Part shown: positions 8,431 to 20,474 of the stretch, piece by piece | Position numbering within the stretch: position 1 is the stretch's first letter | How the letters are laid out: every line of letters starts with the position of its first letter | From: a virus | Virus record (IMG/VR): IMGVR_UViG_3300025770_000103 | Coordinates: 1 to 20,474 of that record | Direction: 5' to 3' (one strand) | DNA length: 20,474 bases | Notes under the pieces: model-generated | Seen by the model: the letters and a program-made list of their open reading frames with translations, nothing else | Told to the model about the DNA's origin: nothing | Databases searched by the model: none | Program-made: the position numbers and the translations under genes

Positions 8431-8612
8431 TGAAGATCGAATCAAATCCGAACCTAGATAAAAATAAGTTCGGATTAATCGTTAATTCAAATAAAAATGA
8501 TTACAATAAGTATATGGAAGATAAGAAAATTAGAATTAGAATGAATAAATTAGAATCAGACATAAATAGTATTAAAGATATGTTAACACAATTATTGAAC
8601 AAGGAATCATAA
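8430..8612 (+). CDS. Small coiled-coil protein of unknown function
   Basis: A 60-residue, highly charged, Lys/Asn-rich protein. Residues about 34-57 (IRMNKLESDINSIKDMLTQL) show a heptad pattern of I/L/M positions, suggesting a short coiled coil. No signal peptide or membrane segment is visible. It begins within the TAATG overlap with the preceding gene's stop and ends in another TAATG overlap with the next gene, so it is translated as part of the same unit. It is kept as real because of this precise coupling on both sides. It might be a small trimerising or accessory tail factor, but nothing in the sequence proves it. Confidence 0.6.
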   Translation: MKIESNPNLDKNKFGLIVNSNKNDYNKYMEDKKIRIRMNKLESDINSIKDMLTQLLNKES

Positions 8613-8806
8613 TGACTGAACTTTATCTCAGACAGGGAACCGTTTTAGCCGAACCCGCTAACTCAGACCCAAAGAATAGCCCCCTAACCAATGTAGAAGT
8701 TGATTCTAATTTCGTTAATCTTAACACTGGTGTTACAAATGCACAATCGACAGCTGCGACAGCTTCGGGATCAGCAGTCGCAATGGCAATAGCCCTCGGA
8801 GGATAA
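8612..8806 (+). CDS. Short fibre-anchor-like protein
   Basis: A 64-residue protein with MTELYLRQGTV near the start, then NSPLTNVEVDSNFVNLN and an Ala/Ser/Thr-rich end. The LTN-x-E-x-DxNFxNLN motif is one I associate with the N-terminal, particle-attached part of long tail fibres in marine T4-like phages. Here it ends after a short Ala-rich stretch rather than continuing into a shaft. It may be a free-standing adaptor or the remnant of a longer fibre whose distal part was lost. The gene is coupled to the preceding one by TAATG. Its last codons contain GGAGGA, which acts as the ribosome site for the gene at 8808. Confidence 0.6.
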   Translation: MTELYLRQGTVLAEPANSDPKNSPLTNVEVDSNFVNLNTGVTNAQSTAATASGSAVAMAIALGG

Positions 8807-8807
8807 T

Positions 8808-9131
8808 ATGGCAAATTCATTTAAAAACGCGGGTATAGCAGTACTAGATACGAGAACACCACTCTATGGTCCGGTACCCGTAGATACGGCAGCTGTTATA
8901 CACGCATTATATATTTCAAATGTAGGTAGTGCCCCCGCTAACGTTGATATCGAAATAACCGTTGATGGTGGGACAACATATCGATATATAGGAAAGGGTC
9001 TTTCCGTACCAGAAGACTCTACATTAGTACTAGATAAACCGATTAATTTAGAGGCAGAGGATAAATTGGAATTAACGGCATCGGCCGTAGGCCATATAGA
9101 AGCAGTTTGCGCTGTATTAGAAATAGATTAG
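8808..9131 (+). CDS. Small beta-rich virion protein
   Basis: A 107-residue protein with alternating hydrophobic/polar strands typical of a small beta-sandwich: HALYISNVGSAPANVDIEIT, then a Gly-containing turn region, and HIEAVCAVLEID at the end. Similar short proteins of this shape sit beside tail and fibre genes in marine myophages, so a decorative or fibre-base structural role is likely. It lacks a signal peptide and catalytic motifs. The start is preceded by GGAGGA within the end of the upstream gene, a strong ribosome site. No named family is claimed. Confidence 0.6.
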   Translation: MANSFKNAGIAVLDTRTPLYGPVPVDTAAVIHALYISNVGSAPANVDIEITVDGGTTYRYIGKGLSVPEDSTLVLDKPINLEAEDKLELTASAVGHIEAVCAVLEID

Positions 9132-9140
9132 GACTAAAAT

Positions 9141-9746
9141 ATGTCATATTTAGGAACTAGAACTGGTGGTAGAGGAGTATTTATATCTTCGGATTTTAAC
9201 TCCGTATCATTTATCGGAGATGGAGGATCAAGAGTATACCCTTTACCAGAAACAATTATTCAAGATGATGCATCGGTACTTGTTCATATAGATGGGGTTA
9301 AACAGCATACATCCGCATATTCTGTTTCTGGCACTTCATTAACTTTTACGGATGCACCACCAAACACATCCAATATAGAAATTATAATATTTGGTGTAAA
9401 ATCAGCTGATACTGTGATTACATATAATCCGAACTCAATTTCGATTATGGAGCTGGACACTCTTGATGGCGATCCTGGTCAAGTATTAACAACGGATGGT
9501 GCAGGTAATTTAAGTTTCAGTTCTAAATCTACAGAAACTTTGTTTTCTATGGGAGTCACAGTATCAGCAACAGAACTGAATTATGTTGGTGGTATTACTA
9601 GTAATATTAATACTCAACTCCTATCTAAGCAAGACACCTTAGTATCTGCTACTAATATAAAATCGATTAATGGAGATTCTATATTAGGTTCGGGGGATTT
9701 GGCAATAACAGGGTGGTCATATGCAACAACCCTTAAGTTTGCATAA
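9141..9746 (+). CDS. Fibre-base / short tail fibre protein, cassette 1
   Basis: A 201-residue fibre protein. Residues about 24-95 form a beta domain with HIDGVKQHTSAYSVSG, matching INGIKQHGSAYSLES in the gene at 11944. Next comes LDTLDGDPGQVLTTDGAGNL, a shaft motif shared with that gene, then a stalk segment with ATELNYVGGITSNINTQL and NIKSINGDSILGSGDL. The last motif is common in phage fibre shafts and recurs in the gene at 18888. The protein ends soon after it (WSYATTLKFA), so it lacks a large distal domain; the distal part may come from the next genes. It opens the first host-recognition cassette. The first 16 bases of the gene are identical to those of the gene at 11944. Confidence 0.7.
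   Translation: MSYLGTRTGGRGVFISSDFNSVSFIGDGGSRVYPLPETIIQDDASVLVHIDGVKQHTSAYSVSGTSLTFTDAPPNTSNIEIIIFGVKSADTVITYNPNSISIMELDTLDGDPGQVLTTDGAGNLSFSSKSTETLFSMGVTVSATELNYVGGITSNINTQLLSKQDTLVSATNIKSINGDSILGSGDLAITGWSYATTLKFA
9475..9517 (+). repeat. 43-bp dispersed repeat, copy A (pairs with 12281-12323)
   Basis: It encodes the GQVLTTDGAGNLS shaft motif. Copy B at 12281-12323 differs at one position (9497 T, 12303 C). Identity at the nucleotide level inside otherwise diverged genes suggests recombination between fibre genes. Confidence 0.85.
9639..9702 (+). repeat. 64-bp dispersed repeat, copy A (pairs with 19113-19176)
   Basis: 61 of 64 bases match 19113-19176. It encodes the NIKSINGDSILGSGDL stalk motif in two different fibre genes 9.5 kb apart. 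Confidence 0.85.
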
Positions 9747-9767
9747 TATAATTAATAAGGAATACAA

Positions 9768-11039
9768 ATGGCTGACAACGTAAAAGTCTTTACACACATA
9801 GACGCACAAACAACCACAGGTGATATAAGCATAGTGACAACCGATGCTGAAACGCAAGCAGTTGTTAAAGATGTAATATTTAAGGGTAAATCAACTCATT
9901 ACCCAACAGAAATGACATTAAAACTTAATGATATATTATTAGGTGAAACTTATACTTCCGGCCCAGATGAGGAGTTGAATGTAGGTTTAAGTGGAAACCT
10001 AATAATGGATGCGACTTCTATTCTTAAAGTAAGTATACCAACAGTACCACAAGTAGATTATGTTGCTAAATTAGATGCAGTAATATTCAGTGATAATTAT
10101 AACCAAACGCTGAGAGATATAAACCTTACACCAATCGAATCAACTACTCCTTACACAAACACGGATGTTGAATCTCATTTACAAGCGACGGGACAAGGGG
10201 GTACTAATAACCCTGCAAACTGTGCTTTCGCTGTTATTAGAAACTCTGAGGTACAATACTTTAGGTACTGGGAAGGCGACCTATTTAGACATCATGATGG
10301 TGCAGCACCAGCAGAAACTGCAATCACTGTACTTGATGGGAGTGGAAATGCCGTAAGTAGTTATAGTATGTGTACTGATGGCACATTCTTCTATGAGAAA
10401 TCGAGTAGTACAAGTACAGAGATAAGAGTTTATAACGTCTCTGATTATGTCCCACAAACTTCAATCACCACAGATGTTTCCTACTCAGGACAGGCAAGTA
10501 ATCAAGGGTCATATATGCTTACGCATGGTGGTTATATTTATACTAAACATCTTTCTGTAGATACTATTATATACAAGACCAATATCGAAGATGGGACAAC
10601 CACCACAATAAATGTTAATTCTGTAGGTAATTATTCGGGGGGTGCTGTTATAACGAGAGGTTCAGATACTGAATTTTACCTAGTGGAAAAGGGTAGTAAT
10701 GGGTGGTACAAAGTTAATCTAGCTACTGATTTAGTAGTGAATTATGCGGGCAATGGCGGTATGAACGAAACCACAGAGTATGGGAACAATGCGTTTGAAA
10801 TCTCTGGTGGTTATGTTGGTGTTATTGACGGCCTCAATATAGTTGTTATTAATGTAGTAGAAGGAACTTATGCTCGTACCTCTGGTAATGGATCTACAAA
10901 CGGAGGGTACTTTTCTAGCATTAGCAATACCTTTGGATCAAAGAGTGCAGTTGCGGCTTTGTCAATATCAGCGAATTTTGACAGTAGACCGCATGGCTTA
11001 AATTACAGTATATATGCCTCTGGCGTAGAAATTACATAA
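9768..11039 (+). CDS. Putative receptor-binding/fibre protein with propeller-like repeats
   Basis: A 423-residue protein I do not recognise by family. The N-terminal roughly 120 residues (MADNVKVFTHIDAQ, then a beta-rich stretch ending near SILKVSIP) would suit an attachment domain. The rest consists of Tyr-, Ser- and Gly-rich beta segments with repeated tyrosine-strand patterns such as YFRYWEGDLFRHHDG, GGYIYTKHL, TEFYLVEKGSNGWYKVNL and VGVIDGLNIVVINVVEGTY. These resemble blades of a beta-propeller or another repetitive beta fold. It sits between a fibre-base protein and a fibre chaperone and carries a good ribosome site (AATAAGGAATACAA). A distal adhesin role is inferred from position and fold-like texture only. 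Confidence 0.55.
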   Translation: MADNVKVFTHIDAQTTTGDISIVTTDAETQAVVKDVIFKGKSTHYPTEMTLKLNDILLGETYTSGPDEELNVGLSGNLIMDATSILKVSIPTVPQVDYVAKLDAVIFSDNYNQTLRDINLTPIESTTPYTNTDVESHLQATGQGGTNNPANCAFAVIRNSEVQYFRYWEGDLFRHHDGAAPAETAITVLDGSGNAVSSYSMCTDGTFFYEKSSSTSTEIRVYNVSDYVPQTSITTDVSYSGQASNQGSYMLTHGGYIYTKHLSVDTIIYKTNIEDGTTTTINVNSVGNYSGGAVITRGSDTEFYLVEKGSNGWYKVNLATDLVVNYAGNGGMNETTEYGNNAFEISGGYVGVIDGLNIVVINVVEGTYARTSGNGSTNGGYFSSISNTFGSKSAVAALSISANFDSRPHGLNYSIYASGVEIT

Positions 11040-11054
11040 TCGGAGAATAACATA

Positions 11055-11549
11055 ATGTTAGAAAATAAAACATCATCCCCAACAGTAGTAGAATCAACAA
11101 ACATAGTATTTGATTCTGGATGGAAAAGAGTATCAGGAAGGGGTATTAATCTCCCTACAAATCTGTATTCAAATAACACTGAAAGAATGCTCATGTGGTC
11201 TTTCGAGATGATATCTATTCGCAATAGCCCAACTTGGGCTATGTTCCATCCCCAACTTCTTGACCTATCCGCGTCTCTGATTGCTGTGGACACAGATTAC
11301 GCATGGACTGCTAATAAGGGGCCATCCTTTTCTACGATCGGTGCCGATTGGTGGGTGTTGGATAGTGCTTCTGCTGCGATAGGGAAATATAGGTTTTCTT
11401 CGACTACGGGGAATGGAAAATGGAATATGCTGCCGGCGGGGTTTAGTGTCAGAATATATTCTGACAGCAGCTTTCAGTCAAATCACGTTGTAGATTATAA
11501 ATTGACTGTCGTTGAAGCAGATACATCATTACTTGTAAACAGGAATTGA
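11055..11549 (+). CDS. Unrecognised cassette-1 protein, possible fibre tip
   Basis: A 164-residue protein with no family that I recognise. It is rich in Ser, Trp and aromatic residues (FDSGWKRVSGRGINLP, PTWAMFHPQL, GADWWVLDS) and ends with a beta-strand-like VVDYKLTVVE. There are no catalytic motifs, membrane spans or signal peptide. A clear ribosome site (CGGAGAATAAC) precedes the ATG. It lies directly upstream of the assembly chaperone, the usual place for a fibre tip or adhesin, so a receptor-binding or tip role is plausible but not shown. Confidence 0.5.
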   Translation: MLENKTSSPTVVESTNIVFDSGWKRVSGRGINLPTNLYSNNTERMLMWSFEMISIRNSPTWAMFHPQLLDLSASLIAVDTDYAWTANKGPSFSTIGADWWVLDSASAAIGKYRFSSTTGNGKWNMLPAGFSVRIYSDSSFQSNHVVDYKLTVVEADTSLLVNRN

Positions 11550-11550
11550 T

Positions 11551-11934
11551 ATGTATTTATTTATAGGGGAACTAGGGGAAATACTTAAAGGTAGTTATGA
11601 AGAGGTTACAGATATAGAAGTTGCTGATACTTTTTTCCATACCTACCCTTCTTTTTGCTGGAGGGTAGTAGACGGTGTTGTAACTTTAAAAGATGATGCA
11701 GATGATATTCTTGAAGCTCACCACGAAAAGGAAAAATCTACTCGATTACAGTCTTTAGAGGATGAAGCTTTAAAAGTAGTTAGAGCGCAACGAGGCCGAC
11801 TTCTCGCTGAAACCGATCATTATGCCCTACAGGATGTTGACTTGACTGAAGAAATGACTACATACCGTCAAGCACTTAGAGATTTACCGGAGACAGTTGA
11901 TATAAATAACATCATATATCCAGAGAAACCATAG
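11551..11934 (+). CDS. Tail fibre assembly chaperone, cassette 1
   Basis: A 127-residue protein resembling small phage tail/fibre assembly chaperones. It has a variable N-terminal half, a charged helical middle (about residues 55-85) and a C-terminal block with RGRLLAETDHYALQDVDL followed by TTYRQALRDLPETVD. The pattern R-x-x-LL-x-x-TD ... YRQALRDLP is the hallmark of the phage tail assembly chaperone family. Such proteins help fold or trimerise the fibre encoded just upstream and are not usually in the virion. The last 28 codons are identical in DNA to those of the chaperone at 16096, while the N-terminal halves are unrelated. The start follows the previous stop by one base, with AGGA as ribosome site. 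Confidence 0.7.
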   Translation: MYLFIGELGEILKGSYEEVTDIEVADTFFHTYPSFCWRVVDGVVTLKDDADDILEAHHEKEKSTRLQSLEDEALKVVRAQRGRLLAETDHYALQDVDLTEEMTTYRQALRDLPETVDINNIIYPEKP

Positions 11935-11939
11935 AGAGC
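11851..11939 (+). repeat. 89-bp exact direct repeat, left copy (pairs with 16459-16547)
   Basis: Identical over 89 bases to 16459-16547; with one mismatch (11940 A, 16548 G) the match continues through the start codon of the next gene (to 11946/16554). It covers the last 28 codons of the chaperone, its stop, a TATAAATA element and the GAGAG ribosome site. Sequence upstream of the repeat diverges abruptly, so the two copies bracket a 4608-bp unit. Confidence 0.95.
11901..11908 (+). promoter_or_regulatory. T4-type late promoter core TATAAATA, left repeat copy
   Basis: A perfect TATAAATA lies inside the end of the chaperone coding sequence (codons for D-I-N), 35 bases upstream of the ATG at 11944. 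That distance leaves room for a transcript start and the GAGAG ribosome site. It is part of the duplicated 89 bp. A chance match within coding sequence is possible. Confidence 0.45.
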
Positions 11940-11943
11940 AATA

Positions 11944-12417
11944 ATGTCATATTTAGGAAAGGCTGAATTAAAGGCTTCAAAAATTAAAAAGTGGACTGGT
12001 TATGCGACGACTGTGGATGGCGTGTCCTTTGTACCATATAGCAGCACAGGTATGGGTTTCACCCCTTTTAATGAAAATTCAACTTGGGTTACTATCAATG
12101 GTATTAAACAGCACGGATCTGCATATTCATTAGAGTCTACACAATTATCATTTGCTTCGGTAGTATCAACAAATGACGAAATTGAAGTGGTTTGTATATT
12201 TGATGTTGGTGTTCCAACATACGTCGATGTAATAGAAAATACCGTTGATGTTGCGGCACTGGACACTTCTGATGGTACAGCTGGTCAAGTATTAACAACG
12301 GACGGTGCAGGTAATTTAAGTTTTTCATCGGCTGGATTGGGTGATATAGATGGAGGAGATTCGGCGACTGTATATTCAGTCGCAGACATAATAATAGATA
12401 GCGGAGGAGCCACATAA
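11944..12417 (+). CDS. Fibre-base / short tail fibre protein, cassette 2
   Basis: A 157-residue protein related to the product of 9141. Both begin MSYLG, and the domain around INGIKQHGSAYSLES and the shaft motif LDTSDGTAGQVLTTDGAGNL match that protein. The region between residues 6 and 55 and the C-terminus (DIDGGDSATVYSVADIIID) differ. It lacks the NIKSINGDSILGSGDL stalk. It begins immediately after the left 89-bp repeat and ends in a TAATG overlap with the next gene, whose ribosome site (GGAGG) lies in its final codons. The likely role is to connect the second set of adhesins to the particle, as its paralogue would for the first set. Confidence 0.68.
   Translation: MSYLGKAELKASKIKKWTGYATTVDGVSFVPYSSTGMGFTPFNENSTWVTINGIKQHGSAYSLESTQLSFASVVSTNDEIEVVCIFDVGVPTYVDVIENTVDVAALDTSDGTAGQVLTTDGAGNLSFSSAGLGDIDGGDSATVYSVADIIIDSGGAT
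12281..12323 (+). repeat. 43-bp dispersed repeat, copy B (pairs with 9475-9517)
   Basis: Second copy of the GQVLTTDGAGNLS-coding segment, one mismatch from copy A, at an offset of 2806 bp. Confidence 0.85.
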
Positions 12418-13076
12418 TGGCCACAATATTAAGACAACGTAGAGATACAGCAGCAAATTGGTCATCAGCAAATCCTGTAATACCAGACGGACAATTGTGT
12501 TTCGATACAACAAATAATACTTTTAGAGTTGGTGACGGAACTACAAATTACTCGAGCCTATCCATACAATCTGGACTACCCGGAGAGATGAGCGGTGCTA
12601 ATAATCTATCAGAAATAGTTACTCCTGCAACTGCTCGAACCAATTTAGGGTTGACAATAGGTACTGATGTTCAAGCCTTTGATGTAAATACAACAAAAAA
12701 TGATGTTGCGAATGCCTTTACTGCAGCTAATACCTTTACCGAAACGACATTTATTGAAACATCAGAAACAGTACACGAACTTGTGGATCTTGATATTGAT
12801 CCTGCACATGGTAGTAAGCAGTATAAAACCCTAACGGCAGCTCCAGTTTTTACTTCATCTATTACAGATGGTCAATCAGTACGTCTACGCATTGTCGGAG
12901 GTGATACATATTCTGTTACATGGCCAGATCCAGCAGTTACAGCTAATAACATTACATCTGTAAAATGGGTTACATCTGCAGGTAATGTACGGCCAACTGC
13001 TACTGCAGATGATGTATTTGTCATAGAAATGGAAGATTCTACTTTATACATTTATTATCTCGGTAGTGCTGTATGA
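12417..13076 (+). CDS. Tail fibre protein with Mtd-N-like N-terminal domain
   Basis: A 219-residue fibre protein. Residues 1-50 (ILRQRRDTAANWSSANPVIP, then GQLCFDTTNNTFRVGDGTTN) match the pattern of the major-tropism-determinant N-terminal domain found at the base of many phage fibres (RRDTAANW ... G-x-L-x-F-x-T ... VGDGTT). A shaft follows with ARTNLGLTIGTDVQAFD and DVANAFTAANTF, both common fibre motifs. The C-terminal beta domain (about residues 130-219: VRLRIVGGDTYSVTWPDP, KWVTSAGNVRPT, LYIYYLGSAV) is a small tip domain seen in other tail proteins. The start overlaps the previous stop (TAATG) after GGAGG; the stop overlaps the next start (ATGA). Confidence 0.72.
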   Translation: MATILRQRRDTAANWSSANPVIPDGQLCFDTTNNTFRVGDGTTNYSSLSIQSGLPGEMSGANNLSEIVTPATARTNLGLTIGTDVQAFDVNTTKNDVANAFTAANTFTETTFIETSETVHELVDLDIDPAHGSKQYKTLTAAPVFTSSITDGQSVRLRIVGGDTYSVTWPDPAVTANNITSVKWVTSAGNVRPTATADDVFVIEMEDSTLYIYYLGSAV

Positions 13077-16072
13077 GTATGAAGGAGTTAATGGCTGCAG
13101 GTAACTCCTTATCTTTAGGTGAACCTGACCCAGAGGGTGTTAGCTTTGATGGGACGAATGATTATTTGAGTCGGAGTTCTGACCTGTCAGGTAACACGGA
13201 TTCTAAGACGTTTACTTTTAGTGCATGGGTTTATCTTGGTCACACTGGTAGTGGGTCATCAAATAGTCAATACGGAAAACTATACTTCAATAATAACGGT
13301 ACATACGGTCTTATAATAGAAACAACGTCTTTAGGGGAAATAAGAGTTAGACTACCGCTTGTTGCGGGAAATGACATTACTTTTGAAACCCCAGATACAC
13401 AGTATGGGTTTTTCTTTGGGTGGACACACTTTCTCATTTCGTTTGATATAGAGAACATGTCATACAGGTCTATGTATATCAATGACAGACTGGTGTCCAC
13501 TATCTATGGTGCTGGTTGGACTACAACTTCATCAGCTAATATTGATTTTACAGCGTCTGTTCATTATGTGGCATACTCCCCAACTACTAATCCGTCGGGT
13601 GGGGGTGCGGCTGACGGTAGATTACACGGTAGACTAGCACACACTTTCCTAGACTACACATATCGCGACCTATCTATAGAAGCTAACCGCAGATTGTTCA
13701 TCACTGCTGACGGTAAGCCAGCTACTGGTCAGAGTAGTGTTGATAAGTATCTTAGTGAGAAGTTTGACGCCAACCAAGAGGGAGCAAGCACAAGAGGAAT
13801 TCAATTTAATAGTACGGGCAGTAAGATGTATTTACTATCTTATGGTAATGGTACTGTATTCCAATACTCCCTATCGATAGCGTATGACATAACCTCAGCT
13901 AGTTATGATGGAGTCTCCAAACAGTTAACTGAAGCGATTCAGCCCAACAGCTTGACGCTGAATGATGATGGAACCAAGTTCTTTGTTTGTGATGACTCCT
14001 CCAACTCCGTAAAAGAATACACGATGTCCTCCGCATACGATTTGAGCACAGCAGCGTATTCTACGACGTTTAGCGTCACATCCCAAACCACAAACCCAAC
14101 GGCGCTAGAGTTCAACGCAAGTGGGAGTAAGATGTTTGTCGCGGATCGGACAACAGGGACGGTGTACGTGTATGACTTATCAACTGATTTCTTAGTATCG
14201 TCAGCCTCCTATAATTCAGTCAATAAGGTGTTGAATGTCACTAATCTTTATGGGATGCTCTTTAGTCCTGATGGGACAACATTAGTTATTAGTAGATCTG
14301 ACAACGATACTATTGCCTCTTACTCTTTAAGTGTAGCTTACGATGTTACAACTTGCACCCTAGGAAGTAGTTTCTTTGTTGGTGATTTGGATTCGACGCC
14401 CACTTCTATAGAATGGAATTCAGACGGTTCAGTAATAATTCTTGCTGGCTATGCCACAGCTTCAGTCTATGCCCTCAACCTATCCACCCCCTATGACATA
14501 AGCACAGCCTCGTATGGTGAGGCAGAAGGTACACCCCAAGCTCCCATTATCTACCTACCCATGAAAGATGCAGCTACAGCAGGGGAAAATTTAGGATCGG
14601 GTGGTTCTCAAAATAACTTCTCGGTGAATGGAATACTGGATACGGCTGGTCGTGGACCGAATCAATGGAACTGTTCTGCATCGAAGTTTGATGGGGCGAA
14701 TGATTATTTGCAAATTAGCGGCAACCTTGGAGCGTCTGATGGTAAACTAATTACATATTCTGGTATATTAAGGGCTGATGGTACTACAGGGGGTAATGTT
14801 GGTAATACTATACGTGGCTTTAAAAGTACTGGAAGCGCAAATGTAATTACTGGTCACACCATATCTTTTGGTAGAATATCATGTGCCGTACAGCTTACCG
14901 ATGAAACTGGAGTTAACTTCACATACGATTACAATAATAATACATCACTACCCTACCACGGAAGATACTGGCATGTCTCATACTCTATAGATGTTTCAGA
15001 CAATAATAAGAGAACAGTTATTATAAACGGTGTAAATGTGACAGCCGAAGTTACTTGGACATCATACTCTAATTTATTAGATATACATTTCTCATCGATT
15101 GTTGCATATAGTTATTCAGCAAATAATATCACACCGACAGCATGGGACGAGCAAACTATAGGTGAAGTGTATCTTGATAATACCTACACCGACCTATCCA
15201 CAGACAACCCATTCTGGGATGCAGATGCTAACCGACCTAAACCAGTTCGACAAGTCATCTCAGAAACAGGAACAACACCACTGATTGCAATGCCACTACG
15301 GGCTGATGATGCTGGGAATAATCTAGGTAGCGGTGGTGATTTTATTGTGTACTCTGGCCCATTCACAGGGGCGAGGGGTGGGTCTGAGTTTTGGGCTAGG
15401 AGTGTAAAGGGTAATGGTTCAAGTTCTTATCTAAACGGGAGCACAGGGACAAGTAACAGCAGCGTACATACTCTTGCTTTCGCCATTAATCGAGTTGGCA
15501 TAACACAGTCTAAGCCGATAATTAACACAGGTGGAGTCAATTTTACAGGCAGCGCTAGTGGTGCTTATAATTTATTCTTAGACAACCAGAACCTAAAATT
15601 ACACGCAAATAACGGATCTTTAAATTGGGAGACCACCGACAGTAGTGTTGTAGGCGATCAATGGAACATAATACTGTTATCTTACAATGGTATCTCATAT
15701 GATTTATATATCAACGGCGTTGTCCCTTCTGTGTATACGACATCAAGTGGGACTCCACTATTCCCGTTTAACAATCTAGACATACTTTATAACGGGGGTA
15801 CTGATGTTTACGCTGACAGCTCTATAGGTTTTTTATGGGCGGATGACAGCTACATAGACTTCTCCCAAGAAAGTAACCGTAACCTATTCGTAGACCAACT
15901 TGGATACCCTAAAGACTTAACCCCAGCAATCGAAGCTGGCACTATCGCAGACCCACTCATTTACATGAAATTCGATGACACATCTAGCTTAGGCGCTAAC
16001 TCAGGCACAGGTGTAGATTTCTCCGTCAACGGTACAGTAATCGCTGGTGCTGATGTAGGCCCTAACGCATAA
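13073..16072 (+). CDS. Large LamG/beta-propeller adhesin
   Basis: A 999-residue likely receptor-binding protein. Three modules resemble LamG/concanavalin-like lectin domains: residues about 17-225 (VSFDGTNDYLSRS ... YRDLSIEANRRLFITADGKP), 490-720 (KFDGANDYLQISG ... TYTDLSTDNPFWDADANRP) and 736-955 (KGNGSSSYLNGS ... SYIDFSQESNRNLFVDQLGY). Between the first two, about residues 224-480, are five repeats of roughly 50 residues of the form NxxGSKMYL ... YSLSIAYDITSASY, resembling beta-propeller blades. The C-terminus (PLIYMKFDDTSSLG ... DFSVNG) is the beginning of a fourth module that stops short. Binding to host surface glycans is inferred from the lectin fold. The start overlaps the previous stop (ATGA); in-frame ATGs at 13079 and 13091 (the latter just after AAGGAG) are alternatives. 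Part of the gene is clearly more GC-rich than the baseplate genes. Confidence 0.72.
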   Translation: MSMKELMAAGNSLSLGEPDPEGVSFDGTNDYLSRSSDLSGNTDSKTFTFSAWVYLGHTGSGSSNSQYGKLYFNNNGTYGLIIETTSLGEIRVRLPLVAGNDITFETPDTQYGFFFGWTHFLISFDIENMSYRSMYINDRLVSTIYGAGWTTTSSANIDFTASVHYVAYSPTTNPSGGGAADGRLHGRLAHTFLDYTYRDLSIEANRRLFITADGKPATGQSSVDKYLSEKFDANQEGASTRGIQFNSTGSKMYLLSYGNGTVFQYSLSIAYDITSASYDGVSKQLTEAIQPNSLTLNDDGTKFFVCDDSSNSVKEYTMSSAYDLSTAAYSTTFSVTSQTTNPTALEFNASGSKMFVADRTTGTVYVYDLSTDFLVSSASYNSVNKVLNVTNLYGMLFSPDGTTLVISRSDNDTIASYSLSVAYDVTTCTLGSSFFVGDLDSTPTSIEWNSDGSVIILAGYATASVYALNLSTPYDISTASYGEAEGTPQAPIIYLPMKDAATAGENLGSGGSQNNFSVNGILDTAGRGPNQWNCSASKFDGANDYLQISGNLGASDGKLITYSGILRADGTTGGNVGNTIRGFKSTGSANVITGHTISFGRISCAVQLTDETGVNFTYDYNNNTSLPYHGRYWHVSYSIDVSDNNKRTVIINGVNVTAEVTWTSYSNLLDIHFSSIVAYSYSANNITPTAWDEQTIGEVYLDNTYTDLSTDNPFWDADANRPKPVRQVISETGTTPLIAMPLRADDAGNNLGSGGDFIVYSGPFTGARGGSEFWARSVKGNGSSSYLNGSTGTSNSSVHTLAFAINRVGITQSKPIINTGGVNFTGSASGAYNLFLDNQNLKLHANNGSLNWETTDSSVVGDQWNIILLSYNGISYDLYINGVVPSVYTTSSGTPLFPFNNLDILYNGGTDVYADSSIGFLWADDSYIDFSQESNRNLFVDQLGYPKDLTPAIEAGTIADPLIYMKFDDTSSLGANSGTGVDFSVNGTVIAGADVGPNA
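13145..13168 (+). repeat. 24-bp intragenic repeat (pairs with 14687-14710)
   Basis: The codons for FDG-x-NDYL at the start of the first and second LamG-like modules match in 23 of 24 bases, supporting duplication or shared origin of the modules. Confidence 0.7.
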
Positions 16073-16095
16073 TAGCAGACAAAGGAGAAATAACA

Positions 16096-16542
16096 ATGCT
16101 ATATCTAAAAGCAATCAATAACAAAGTAGAGAAATATCCATATACACTTGGTCAATTGAGAAAAGACAATGTAAACACAACATTTCCAAAGCAACCCAAT
16201 CTAGAGACATTAAGTGCATTCAATATGTACCCAGTGACAGAAGTAACACCAACGCTTGCAGATGGTGAGAAGTTAGTTAAAGTCTGGACACCAGAACTGG
16301 TATCTGGTCACTGGATTCTGCCACACCAAGCAGTCGCCAAGACAGAAGAAGATTTAGCTACGGAGTCGGAAGTCGCTTGGGATAATCTCAGAGAGCAACG
16401 AAATAAGCTACTCGGGGAAACAGATTTCCACGCATTATCTGATGTAAATATGCCGGAGGAAATGACTACATACCGTCAAGCACTTAGAGATTTACCGGAG
16501 ACAGTTGATATAAATAACATCATATATCCAGAGAAACCATAG
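16096..16542 (+). CDS. Tail fibre assembly chaperone, cassette 2
   Basis: A 148-residue protein of the phage tail assembly chaperone type. The N-terminus (YPYTLGQLRKDNVNTTFPKQ, residues about 15-34) is a pattern seen in other phage fibre-associated small proteins. A middle segment with VWTPELVSGHWILPHQAV is followed by a charged helix. The C-terminal block REQRNKLLGETDFHALSD plus TTYRQALRDLPETVD matches the cassette-1 chaperone. The last 28 codons are identical in DNA to those of that gene, but the N-terminal part differs completely, as expected if the N-terminus is specific for its own fibre. A strong ribosome site (AAAGGAG at 16081-16087) precedes the ATG by 8 bases. It presumably folds or assembles the adhesin at 13073. 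Confidence 0.72.
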   Translation: MLYLKAINNKVEKYPYTLGQLRKDNVNTTFPKQPNLETLSAFNMYPVTEVTPTLADGEKLVKVWTPELVSGHWILPHQAVAKTEEDLATESEVAWDNLREQRNKLLGETDFHALSDVNMPEEMTTYRQALRDLPETVDINNIIYPEKP

Positions 16543-16547
16543 AGAGC
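16459..16547 (+). repeat. 89-bp exact direct repeat, right copy (pairs with 11851-11939)
   Basis: Right copy of the perfect direct repeat. It ends just before the gp13 start; the ATG and flanking bases also match the left copy apart from 16548. Confidence 0.95.
16509..16516 (+). promoter_or_regulatory. T4-type late promoter core TATAAATA, right repeat copy
   Basis: The same TATAAATA, 35 bases upstream of the gp13 ATG, at the end of the fibre cassettes and the start of the neck block. A late promoter here would give gp13-gp14-gp15 expression independent of the fibre genes. Confidence 0.5.
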
Positions 16548-16551
16548 GATA

Positions 16552-17355
16552 ATGGCATTAACAACAAAATCAGAATTATCTGAATATTGTCTTCGAAGAC
16601 TCGGTAAACCAGTTGTCGATATTAATGTCGATATTGATCAAATCTCAGACAGAATAGATGATGCGCTTGAATATTTCAATCAATTTCATTATGATGGGAT
16701 TGAAAGATTATATCTATCTCACACAATAACTCAGGCCGACCTTGATCGTGCGGTGGGTGTTAATTCTGAAACGGCAACAGAAGATTCAGTTTCATCGGTT
16801 TGGACGAATCAAAATAATTGGATCGCCATACCAGATTCGGTTGTATCAATTGTTAATGTATATCATCCATCCACAGCATTCGGATCTAATTGGTATAATC
16901 AAGCAGCAATGATACGGTCGGGTTTGATTGATTTAAACCCTGCGGCAGATCTTGTTTCCACTTCAATGGCTCGGGAAAAATTAGACATGATTGATACTAT
17001 GTTCAATACGCAAGTGTCAATTAGATTTAATCATTTAAGTTCTAAACTGTACTTCGATAATACTTGGTCGGAAACTTTTAAAGTTGATGATACTATACTT
17101 ATTGAATGCTATAGAAAAACCGATCCCTCTGTAGCAGTAAGACTTTATAATGATATGTTCCTCAAGAGATATGCTACAGAACTCATCAAAAGACAATGGG
17201 GTCAAAACCTCCAGAAATTCAAAGGCATCGCGATGATTGGTGGTGTTGAAATTGATGCGGATACTATATATACTCAGGCACAAGAGGAAATTGAAAAACT
17301 AGAAGAAAAAATAATATCTACATATCAAGCACCGCTTGATTTTATGGTGGGGTAG
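16552..17355 (+). CDS. gp13: Neck protein, T4 gp13-like
   Basis: Head-completion/neck protein homologous to T4 gp13, which with gp14 forms the connector between the DNA-filled head and the tail. The N-terminus SEYCLRRLGKPVVDINVD (residues about 9-26), followed by DQISDRIDDALEYFNQFHYD, is the conserved start of gp13 in marine T4-like phages. The length is 267 residues against 309 in T4. A long C-terminal helix (QAQEEIEKLEEKIIST) is visible. It lies immediately upstream of gp14- and gp15-like genes, as in the T4 order 13-14-15. A GAGAG ribosome site and the right TATAAATA element precede it, both within the duplicated 89 bp and its one-mismatch extension. Confidence 0.85.
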   Translation: MALTTKSELSEYCLRRLGKPVVDINVDIDQISDRIDDALEYFNQFHYDGIERLYLSHTITQADLDRAVGVNSETATEDSVSSVWTNQNNWIAIPDSVVSIVNVYHPSTAFGSNWYNQAAMIRSGLIDLNPAADLVSTSMAREKLDMIDTMFNTQVSIRFNHLSSKLYFDNTWSETFKVDDTILIECYRKTDPSVAVRLYNDMFLKRYATELIKRQWGQNLQKFKGIAMIGGVEIDADTIYTQAQEEIEKLEEKIISTYQAPLDFMVG

Positions 17356-18887: not shown

Positions 18888-20474
18888 ATGGCATTAACTA
18901 AAATAAAAAATACCAGTCTAGATGATGCAGATTTAGTTACCCTAGCAGATAATGGTGTAGGTACTGGGGCGAACCAAATTGTTCAGAGAGATGGATCTGG
19001 TGATATTCCAGGTGTTCTCAGGTCGTCAGACGCTGGTACCACATTCGTTGCCCCAACTGGGGATGGGTCCAATTTAACCGGTGTTCTTAAACCTGGTGAC
19101 GCCCACGATGTATTAGTATCTGGTACAAATATAAAATCGATTAATGGCGATTCTATATTAGGTTCGGGGGATTTGGGAGTTGGGGATAAAGATGTTTTTA
19201 GCATCTTGAAAAAAATTGACGTACCCATTGGTCTGTGTCCGAATCATTATAATGATAATGTCGATTTTAAATATTGGACAACAACTAATTTAATAATAGT
19301 ACACAATCCTAGTCCCAATAAGATATATGTTATTAATAAATTGGATCCCGAAGGAGAGGTAAAGACCTATACTTATTCAGGATTAGTAGCATTTGACATC
19401 ATAAGTGATACACTTGCTCTTGCTACTACATTCGATACATCAGGATCATCAGGATCAAATCCTAGTGTGGTATTCAAAATAGAGATATCAGGAACCACAT
19501 TTACTAAGGGTGCAGATAGTAATATCCTGGCTACCGCTATGAGCAGTAGTTCATACAGTAGTACTACATGGTCTAATAGTAGCTCGACTTATGATTCTAA
19601 CCACCAAGTCAATGGTATGATCGTCACTAGTCCTGATCAAGCCTTCATCGATGTCATGGCAAGTCGCACCGCCTTTGGGATAACCTACTACGCGAGTGGT
19701 TCTTGTGCGGTCGATATAAATGGCACTAGCCTAAACGATGCTCCAATTATTGGGACTCCGTCCGATCCCGACGAAGAGTGTTCAGGTTTCAAGACTTTTA
19801 AAAAGGTAAGTCCAAATCAATGCATTGTATCTTATAGACCCGGGGCGGGGGGATATGCCTCTATGTGGTTATTGAGCATTGATGGAAATAATGCTACCTC
19901 AGGTGATAGAATTAAGATACTAAAGAGTCTTCAATTAGATGCTGATGAGGATGGCAATTTGCAGCATTCTCATCCATGGCCATATGGATTTTGTGTCGAA
20001 AGTAATATGTATCAAGAAGGATCCCTCGGAGAAGGATATGCTAGTAATATTTTCACTTTCGATATACACGCAAGTTCTTCAGAAGCGTCGACACACAAAC
20101 GACATTCCTGGCTAGAAATAGTTGGGGCAAACACCATCCTGAATTTAGTAACTGCGACAATCGAAAGTAACTCTTTAGCTGGATCCGTTACTTTCGCTAG
20201 GGATAGAAAAAATGTTAACGCCTCCTCCGGTGGCGTATCTGATTATGCGGTCCCATACAGAATTATCAAAGGCGTTCGCGATGATGAGATATGTCTGTGT
20301 TATCTCGACTCCGCGATAGGGGGAAAATATGCAATTCGATATTGGCACTGGGATCAAGCAGGTAGTAATGGCCTCACAAGTCAACTGAACAGTTCTTCGA
20401 GTACCCCAGCTTCTTTGGACCTTCCATACAGTTATGCGATGGCTGGGGGTTCCCCAAGTCATATGTCAAGAATA
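18888..20474 (+). CDS. Tail fibre protein, 3' end outside window
   Basis: An uninterrupted frame from ATG 18888 runs to the right edge (529 codons, no stop). AAAAAGGAAACAG is the ribosome site. The N-terminus MALTKIKNTSLDDADLVTLA, with NQIVQRDGSGDIPG following, is a fibre base typical of marine myophages. VAPTGDGSNLTGV and the stalk NIKSINGDSILGSGDL (about residues 78-95) come next. The stalk DNA is nearly identical to that in the gene at 9141. From about residue 105 on is a large beta-rich distal region (Ser-, Tyr-, Gly- and Trp-rich, for example KYWTTTNLIIVHNPSPNKIY and YAIRYWHWDQ) that I cannot assign, probably the receptor-binding part. It lies after gp15, where T4 has gene 16. Confidence 0.75.
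   Translation, partial: MALTKIKNTSLDDADLVTLADNGVGTGANQIVQRDGSGDIPGVLRSSDAGTTFVAPTGDGSNLTGVLKPGDAHDVLVSGTNIKSINGDSILGSGDLGVGDKDVFSILKKIDVPIGLCPNHYNDNVDFKYWTTTNLIIVHNPSPNKIYVINKLDPEGEVKTYTYSGLVAFDIISDTLALATTFDTSGSSGSNPSVVFKIEISGTTFTKGADSNILATAMSSSSYSSTTWSNSSSTYDSNHQVNGMIVTSPDQAFIDVMASRTAFGITYYASGSCAVDINGTSLNDAPIIGTPSDPDEECSGFKTFKKVSPNQCIVSYRPGAGGYASMWLLSIDGNNATSGDRIKILKSLQLDADEDGNLQHSHPWPYGFCVESNMYQEGSLGEGYASNIFTFDIHASSSEASTHKRHSWLEIVGANTILNLVTATIESNSLAGSVTFARDRKNVNASSGGVSDYAVPYRIIKGVRDDEICLCYLDSAIGGKYAIRYWHWDQAGSNGLTSQLNSSSSTPASLDLPYSYAMAGGSPSHMSRI
19113..19176 (+). repeat. 64-bp dispersed repeat, copy B (pairs with 9639-9702)
   Basis: It matches 9639-9702 in 61 of 64 bases and encodes the same stalk motif in the fibre gene downstream of gp15. 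Confidence 0.85.

Follow-up and report, generated by a model that had tools for sequence, protein, structure and literature searches.

Gene content of the region

We analysed the IMG/VR virus record IMGVR_UViG_3300025770_000103 over its entire length of 20,474 nt, a fragment referred to here as the window, and concentrated on positions 9141–16542, where two tandem tail-fibre cassettes are located on the + strand, as are the other features of the window given with coordinates below. Cassette 1 is composed of the base B1 (9141..9746), a protein of 201 aa with an MSYLG start, a DUF4183-like domain and linker motifs that shows weak matches to DUF4183 and to tail-fibre PHROGs; the orphans A423 (9768..11039; 423 aa) and A164 (11055..11549; 164 aa), by position an adhesin candidate and, as the last gene before the chaperone, a tip candidate; and the tail-fibre chaperone C1 (11551..11934). 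Cassette 2 contains the base B2 (11944..12417; 157 aa), the predicted fibre trunk M219 (12417..13076; 219 aa), with an Mtd_N domain (PF18454, 36.8 bits) at residues 7–43 and a conserved C-terminal domain, the predicted adhesin L999 (13073..16072; 999 aa) and the cognate chaperone of the L999 family, C2 (16096..16542). Both cassettes end in an exact direct repeat of 89 nt (11851..11939 and 16459..16547), which covers the final codons and stop of the chaperone gene and reaches into the spacer before the following gene. The second copy is followed by the neck protein gene gp13 (16552..17355; phrog_211), which has relatives and marks the downstream border of the cluster.

The original prediction had described two tandem cassettes built to one plan, and this organization is real. 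All the ORFs were found at the predicted positions, both bases (9141 and 11944) begin with MSYLG, and both cassettes are closed by a chaperone, with C1 and C2 scoring 49.4 and 37.3 bits against PF16778 (Phage_tail_APC), above the Pfam gathering score of 26.6. As it had also proposed, the distal proteins are unrelated, and those of 423 and 164 aa show no similarity to those of 219 and 999 aa. The relative G003 (loci L013 and L023) displays the order of the window, that is, a B1-type base, a 661-aa adhesin, a chaperone, a B2-type base, a chaperone and gp13, and relatives of the window carry other cassette numbers and mixes.

Judged from its sequence, the source is an uncultured T4-like marine phage of the Kyanoviridae type. 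The gene order in the window is a baseplate wedge gene, two large phrog_358-type proteins, the fibre region and gp13, gp14 and gp15, which match PHROGs of the head-tail adaptor, head closure and tail sheath stabiliser, respectively. The nearest cultured gp13 proteins, at 43–45% identity, belong to three Kyanoviridae, Methylophilales phage Melnitz and the Pelagibacter phages Mosig and HTVC008M, and no match to the window at the DNA level was found in phage records. One of the large proteins, w358b, is 33% identical to the annotated VrlC of HTVC008M, and the annotated regions of Melnitz, Mosig and HTVC008M contain the same island between the VrlC-type baseplate and neck genes. The variable fibre genes of the window thus lie between a VrlC-type baseplate gene and a neck gene, and their content varies among relatives. 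This is the location of the host recognition cluster (HRC) known from pelagimyophages and cyanomyophages and described as hypervariable (PMC7029224), and by gene order we assign the two cassettes to that cluster. Position, hypervariability and the presence of several fibre genes are alike in both, whereas tandem base-adhesin-chaperone cassettes and a putative promoter at their joints are features of the window that the consulted sections of that paper do not describe for the HRC. The variability is illustrated by the relative L003, which shares 93–97% DNA identity with the window over gp13–gp15, yet only 39% in the adhesin bodies.

The L999 adhesins are mosaics

To explore the variation of the adhesin, we collected 38 loci of the L999 family and aligned 29 sequences, after removing six flagged duplicates and four proteins of 550 aa or less and adding the window. 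The protein consists of three LamG-like bodies between four conserved connectors, with a propeller at about residues 230–487 and Pfam matches to Laminin_G_3 and Lactonase. In a first alignment of nine members (A1), the mean pairwise identity was 0.75–0.81 in the connectors and 0.21–0.27 in the bodies between them, and the 29-sequence alignment gave 0.62–0.76 and 0.20–0.28, respectively. The same pattern was found in the DNA of the nine members, with 0.60 to 0.90 in the connectors and 0.35–0.43 in the bodies, which are low in every pair. A scan of genome contigs with A1 returned no relative.

Body identity above 50% was detected in seven pairs among the 29 rows, for all three bodies in L128 and L134 and for just one body in the other six. 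In L146 and L155 the DNA of body 3 is 98–100% identical and the core of body 2 is 33–43% identical, and L151 and L152 have body 1 in common (91–93%), but not bodies 2 and 3. The best match between bodies of different slots reaches 40%, compared with 97% within a slot, and body exchange therefore seems to be slot-specific. The beta-propeller, a segment of 274 residues, is cleanly present in L128 and missing in L134, the remainder of the two being 79–99% identical in DNA; it occurs in three of the 29 family members.

The tentative assignment of the bodies to LamG is based on profile and structure comparisons. L999 scored 28.0 bits against LamG (PF13385), a marginal value for a threshold of 27.6; four of nine family members matched the Pfam profile at an E-value of 0.01. 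L146 matched clearly, with 47.7 bits, and L128 showed no match in Pfam. In the AlphaFold2 model of L999 the propeller (residues ~240–480) is good, with pLDDT mostly 80–93 and five four-stranded repeats counted from the strand list, and the bodies are low-confidence sandwiches. The best match to the model in the PDB was neurexin LNS1-6 with a TM score of 0.12, a value at which the match hints at the kind of repeat and not at its arrangement. We regard the bodies as putative sugar-binding, LamG-like parts.

Members of the family are also found in other phage types. L104 lies on a contig that resembles a temperate siphophage, with a lambda-type J protein, a tape measure protein and an integrase, and alongside L109 there is a phrog_1216 portal protein. 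Among named viral matches, the best is a protein of Lentibacter phage ICBM2, whose L999-like gene is adjoined by a full-length match to the C2-type chaperone. No published account of a LamG rack, or of a chaperone end that is at the same time a late promoter, was found in the open literature searched.

A study by Trojet (2011) reportedly deals with T2-type gp38 adhesins that have hypervariable regions between glycine-rich motifs. The same organization is described in PMC12892980 and, as in L999, conserved frames alternate with hypervariable binding segments, which in gp38 change receptor specificity. In contrast to gp38, the units exchanged in L999 are entire LamG-like bodies, each about 150 aa long, instead of polyglycine-sandwich loops, and the family spans unrelated phages. 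Identity of L999 with a T2-type gp38 adhesin was rejected, the connectors in A1 not being polyglycine repeats by eye. The L999 family is a variant of the known modular phage adhesins.

Chaperone N-termini follow the adhesin family

C1 and C2 have unrelated N-termini, and their C-terminal 51 aa are 78% identical. The C-terminal 55 residues are common to most of the chaperones compared, and the N-termini split into families. A C2-type N-terminus is encoded behind 26 of the 33 L999-family loci in which a next ORF is available (25 at 52–88% identity and one at 31%, duplicates included). Among 11 chaperones located behind other proteins, one matches the C2 N-terminus, weakly (27%). The chaperones behind the adhesins of 661, 667 and 662 aa, which are 41–43% identical to one another, have N-termini of a second family (64, 44 and 41%). 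By genomic pairing, then, the chaperone N-terminus tracks the adhesin family.

This pattern resembles gp24/gp25 of Pam3 and Tfa of phage Mu, which also combine a variable fibre-binding N-terminal part with a conserved C-terminal part; in Pam3, according to PMC9608196, the N-terminal domain binds the fibre and the C-terminal domain trimerises. Unlike these proteins, C1 and C2, here known from sequence, carry a late-promoter-like element in their last codons and form the cassette joint. Alteromonas phages A5, V22 and P24 likewise have a fibre and a cognate chaperone common to distantly related phages, and whole modules are homologous among them in the account of PMC10579305, whereas in the L999 family the exchange also proceeds body by body inside the adhesin.

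We also detected seven L999-family adhesins (L142, L143, L144, L147, L158, L161 and L162) whose next ORF has no C2-type N-terminus, and these may use another kind of chaperone. The second adhesin family, of about 660 aa, comprises L013:4759-6744, L019:144-2147 and L108:4202-6190, and its L013 member matches DUF7483 with 308.9 bits.

A late-promoter-like element at the cassette joint

The 89-nt repeat contains TATAAATA (11901–11908 and 16509–16516), which is placed 43 nt before B2 and 43 nt before gp13. To survey the region upstream of gp13 we used 20 relatives that bear gp14, 18 of which hold the gp13 start. The motif is located 37–43 nt before gp13 in 14 of these 18 contigs (at -43 in 11, at -37 in two and at -39 in one) and within 110 nt in 15, the copies of L019 being at -64 and -13. 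When a chaperone stands directly before gp13, as in the window, L003, L009, L013, L022 and L115, its end (...DINNIIYPEKP) is encoded by the same DNA. The extended element is also found with no chaperone frame reading into it, in L012, L014–L018 and the second (gp13-proximal) copy of L007; L012 and L014–L018 are closely similar in this stretch and represent only a few independent instances. Because the element also precedes gp13 in relatives that have no chaperone there, the last codons of the chaperone overlap a promoter-like element of the next gene. Further copies were observed between the cassettes of the window, L013 and L007, with a variant at -39 before the B2-type base of L007, and an exact pattern scan of viral contigs detected the element in six contigs, two of which have two copies.

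The fraction of motif occurrences located 15–90 nt before an ORF of the same strand is 8/12 for Melnitz, 7/9 for Mosig, 6/7 for HTVC008M, 8/11 for G004, 8/15 for G003 and 3/7 for the window. Positions of this kind make up 6–10% of the + strand of each record (7–10% for Melnitz, Mosig and HTVC008M), and 1% in G003, whose genes are mostly on the - strand. The count in the window taken alone is not unusual (7 against a mean of 4.04, with 10 of 100 shuffles reaching 7). TATAAATA thus lies ahead of late genes and on their coding strand, as a T4-type late promoter motif does, and its placement in the window and its relatives fits the late promoters NATAAATA reported for marine T4-like cyanophages (PMC2984593). 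Late-promoter prediction was reported as unsuccessful in pelagimyophages (PMC7029224). A late sigma factor gene is annotated in the Mosig record, and sigma-70 promoters and terminators were not detected above the level of shuffles.

The last 87 nt of C1 and C2 agree at 86 positions, and the same comparison with C2 of the window gave 87 for L003, 84 for L009, 82 for L022 and 79 for L007. The shared end is therefore about as close within the genome as to the nearest relative, which points to a probable recent exchange at the joint.

Bases, linkers and trunk

According to the original prediction the bases are paralogous, and this holds for part of their length. B1 and B2 are 45% identical over 87 residues (shared part 42–128), a likeness beyond chance given E-values of about 7e-19 (window set) and 1.9e-19 (window record), and the motifs KQH-x-SAYS and GQVLTTDGAGNLSFSS are present in both; the first 40 residues, by contrast, are unlike apart from the MSYLG start. 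GQVLTTDGAGNLSFSS is very common in phage fibres, and the linker motif GQVLTTDGAGNLSF occurs widely among phages: when viral sequences were scanned with B2, at least 232 relatives were returned, and in the majority of the 80 retained the match is confined to that stretch. At the DNA level, two linker copies in B1 and B2 are 88% identical over 65 nt, and B1 has a 64-nt stretch at 95% identity in common with F3, a third fibre-type gene (18888..20474) that runs off the window. No exact copy of either DNA form was found in the other fetched loci, the matching loci all being from the window itself. Since the copies are close in DNA inside the genome and neither form was found exactly in the other loci, an exchange of linkers within the lineage is probable.

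The B2-type bases form a set (window B2, L023_549, L007_321 and L115_546) with mutual identities of 48–63%. Among proteins aligned from the first residue, B1 is nearest to the N-terminus of L023_692 (47%), and a search with B1 in phage records gave no match. In L007 a single ORF of 321 aa (606–1571) matches B2 (residues 1 to 122–129) and residues 49–219 of M219, and in L013/L023 an ORF of 692 aa begins like B1 and ends like M219. The preferred reading is therefore that B2 and M219 are a base and its trunk, L999 being the distal protein and C2 the chaperone of L999. The sizes of the two proposed adhesin sets, 423 and 164 versus 219 and 999 residues, were right, and it is the 219-aa protein that is better placed in the trunk.

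The Mtd_N domain suggested a diversity-generating retroelement, a candidate that was rejected, because a PHROGs scan of 18 proteins of the window gave no match to a reverse transcriptase family. An invertible fibre segment of the Mu G or P1 C type was also rejected, because the repeat found is direct and the inverted repeats in 8600–16600 measure 22 nt or less and are 73–88% complementary.

The orphans of cassette 1 showed no relatives, A423 in Pfam, PHROGs, viral contigs and phage records, and A164 in Pfam, PHROGs, viral contigs and six related records. Both look like real genes by codon usage, with frame-0 correlations of 0.87 (A423) and 0.66 (A164) and values of at most 0.19 in the other frames. 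Structure prediction of A423 from the single sequence gave a mean pLDDT of 35.6 and an unreadable fold. Their candidate role as adhesins is read from position. The GC content at third codon positions (GC3) of A164 is 0.37, and A164, L999 and C2 span 0.33–0.37 versus 0.22–0.28 in the baseplate and neck genes, as would be expected of imported parts.

Origin and possible role of the tandem cassettes

We consider it likely that recombination stacked these fibre cassettes in a T4-like marine phage and that modules are exchanged in the tip. A fuller account, which we judge about equally likely to be right or wrong, is that unrelated marine phages have in common a three-slot lectin rack, whose LamG-like bodies and optional propeller are exchanged slot by slot through conserved connector DNA and which is shipped with its cognate chaperone, and that in the T4-like lineage the last codons of the chaperone also serve the gene behind it as late promoter, which would allow cassettes to be stacked and expressed with the operon intact. 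By sequence, each cassette ends in a copy of the element upstream of gp13 (TATAAATA plus leader), read as the last codons where a chaperone is present. If the chaperone-end element acts as a late promoter, a stacked cassette would start its own late transcript. Fibres may be added, removed and re-tipped by homologous recombination, both at this element and at the connectors. Exchange at these places would explain how a fibre set can be inserted directly ahead of an essential neck gene while late transcription of that gene continues.

Several observations weigh against this scheme. TATAAATA is absent before gp13 in three of the 18 contigs (L005, L006 and L020) and in Melnitz, and it was found neither before B1 nor before the o107 gene, so that cassette 1 would depend on read-through and the idea of an own promoter per cassette holds for cassette 2 only. 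The C2-type N-terminus is missing in 7 of the 33 L999-family loci with a next ORF. The tree of base domains has no well-supported branch, and the comparison of bases consequently uses pairwise identities and gene order only. Finally, the exact 89-nt repeat sits at a place where metagenome assembly could have joined two strains wrongly.

A misjoin of this kind at the C1-B2 junction would be favoured by a repeat that is exact and short and by a source that is an IMG/VR fragment. We regard it as very improbable, because the separate contig L013/L023 has a chaperone with the element, a B2-type base, a chaperone with the element and gp13 in the same order, and its two chaperone ends differ outside a short shared core and contain no long exact repeat. 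The repeat could also mark a stepping stone, in which one cassette arrived recently, a single cassette is in use or retained, and the repeat will delete the other. Indeed, it brackets cassette 2 in such a way that one crossover would remove it; the ends of C1 and C2 agree at 86 of 87 nt, against 84, 82 and 79 for L009, L022 and L007 compared with C2 of the window; and in L115 a chaperone with a C1-like C-terminus (84%) stands directly before gp13. The genes of the window are nevertheless all intact and have good codon usage, and G003 has a comparable order of two cassettes, which makes such a transitory state rather unlikely.

The similarity of the bases raises the further question of whether the proteins of cassettes 1 and 2 join through their related base domains in one composite or branched fibre, a single receptor-binding organelle. 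Residues 42–128 and linker DNA are shared by B1 and B2, and branched multi-protein fibres are known, as in DT57C (PMC4728585) and Ackermannviridae (PMC11721090 and PMC8432352). Each set, however, has its own chaperone, the first 40 residues of the base types differ, and relatives carry other cassette numbers and mixes, and we therefore doubt that a single fibre is formed. A branched virion with two tips would, in any case, still mean two receptor options. The cognate chaperones and the two retained base types lead us to favour two separate fibres, one for B1 and cassette 1 and one for B2 and cassette 2. The proposal of two receptor options is plausible as regards the two cassettes, and it undercounts, because of the third fibre-type gene at 18888: with both fibre types on the virion, the phage would have two receptor options, and three with F3.

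Sequence is a poor guide to the host range of ocean phages, and module swapping in the tip is a likely route to the recognition of new bacteria. Should adhesin parts be exchanged at the connectors and at the promoter joint, a rule for excising binding modules from metagenomic sequences would follow, and the modules of each slot could be compared for the sugars bound.

Other fibre-type genes

F3 is located after gp15, a slot that holds fibre-type genes in relatives too. Its 22-aa start (MALTKIKNTSL...) is also present in genes at the same and at other slots of relatives, and its distal part is propeller-like by eye. In L013, the base-trunk protein of 692 aa (L013:2684-4759) contains a Matrixin (Peptidase_M10) domain at residues 336–504 (51.7 bits), that is, a protease domain within a fibre protein.

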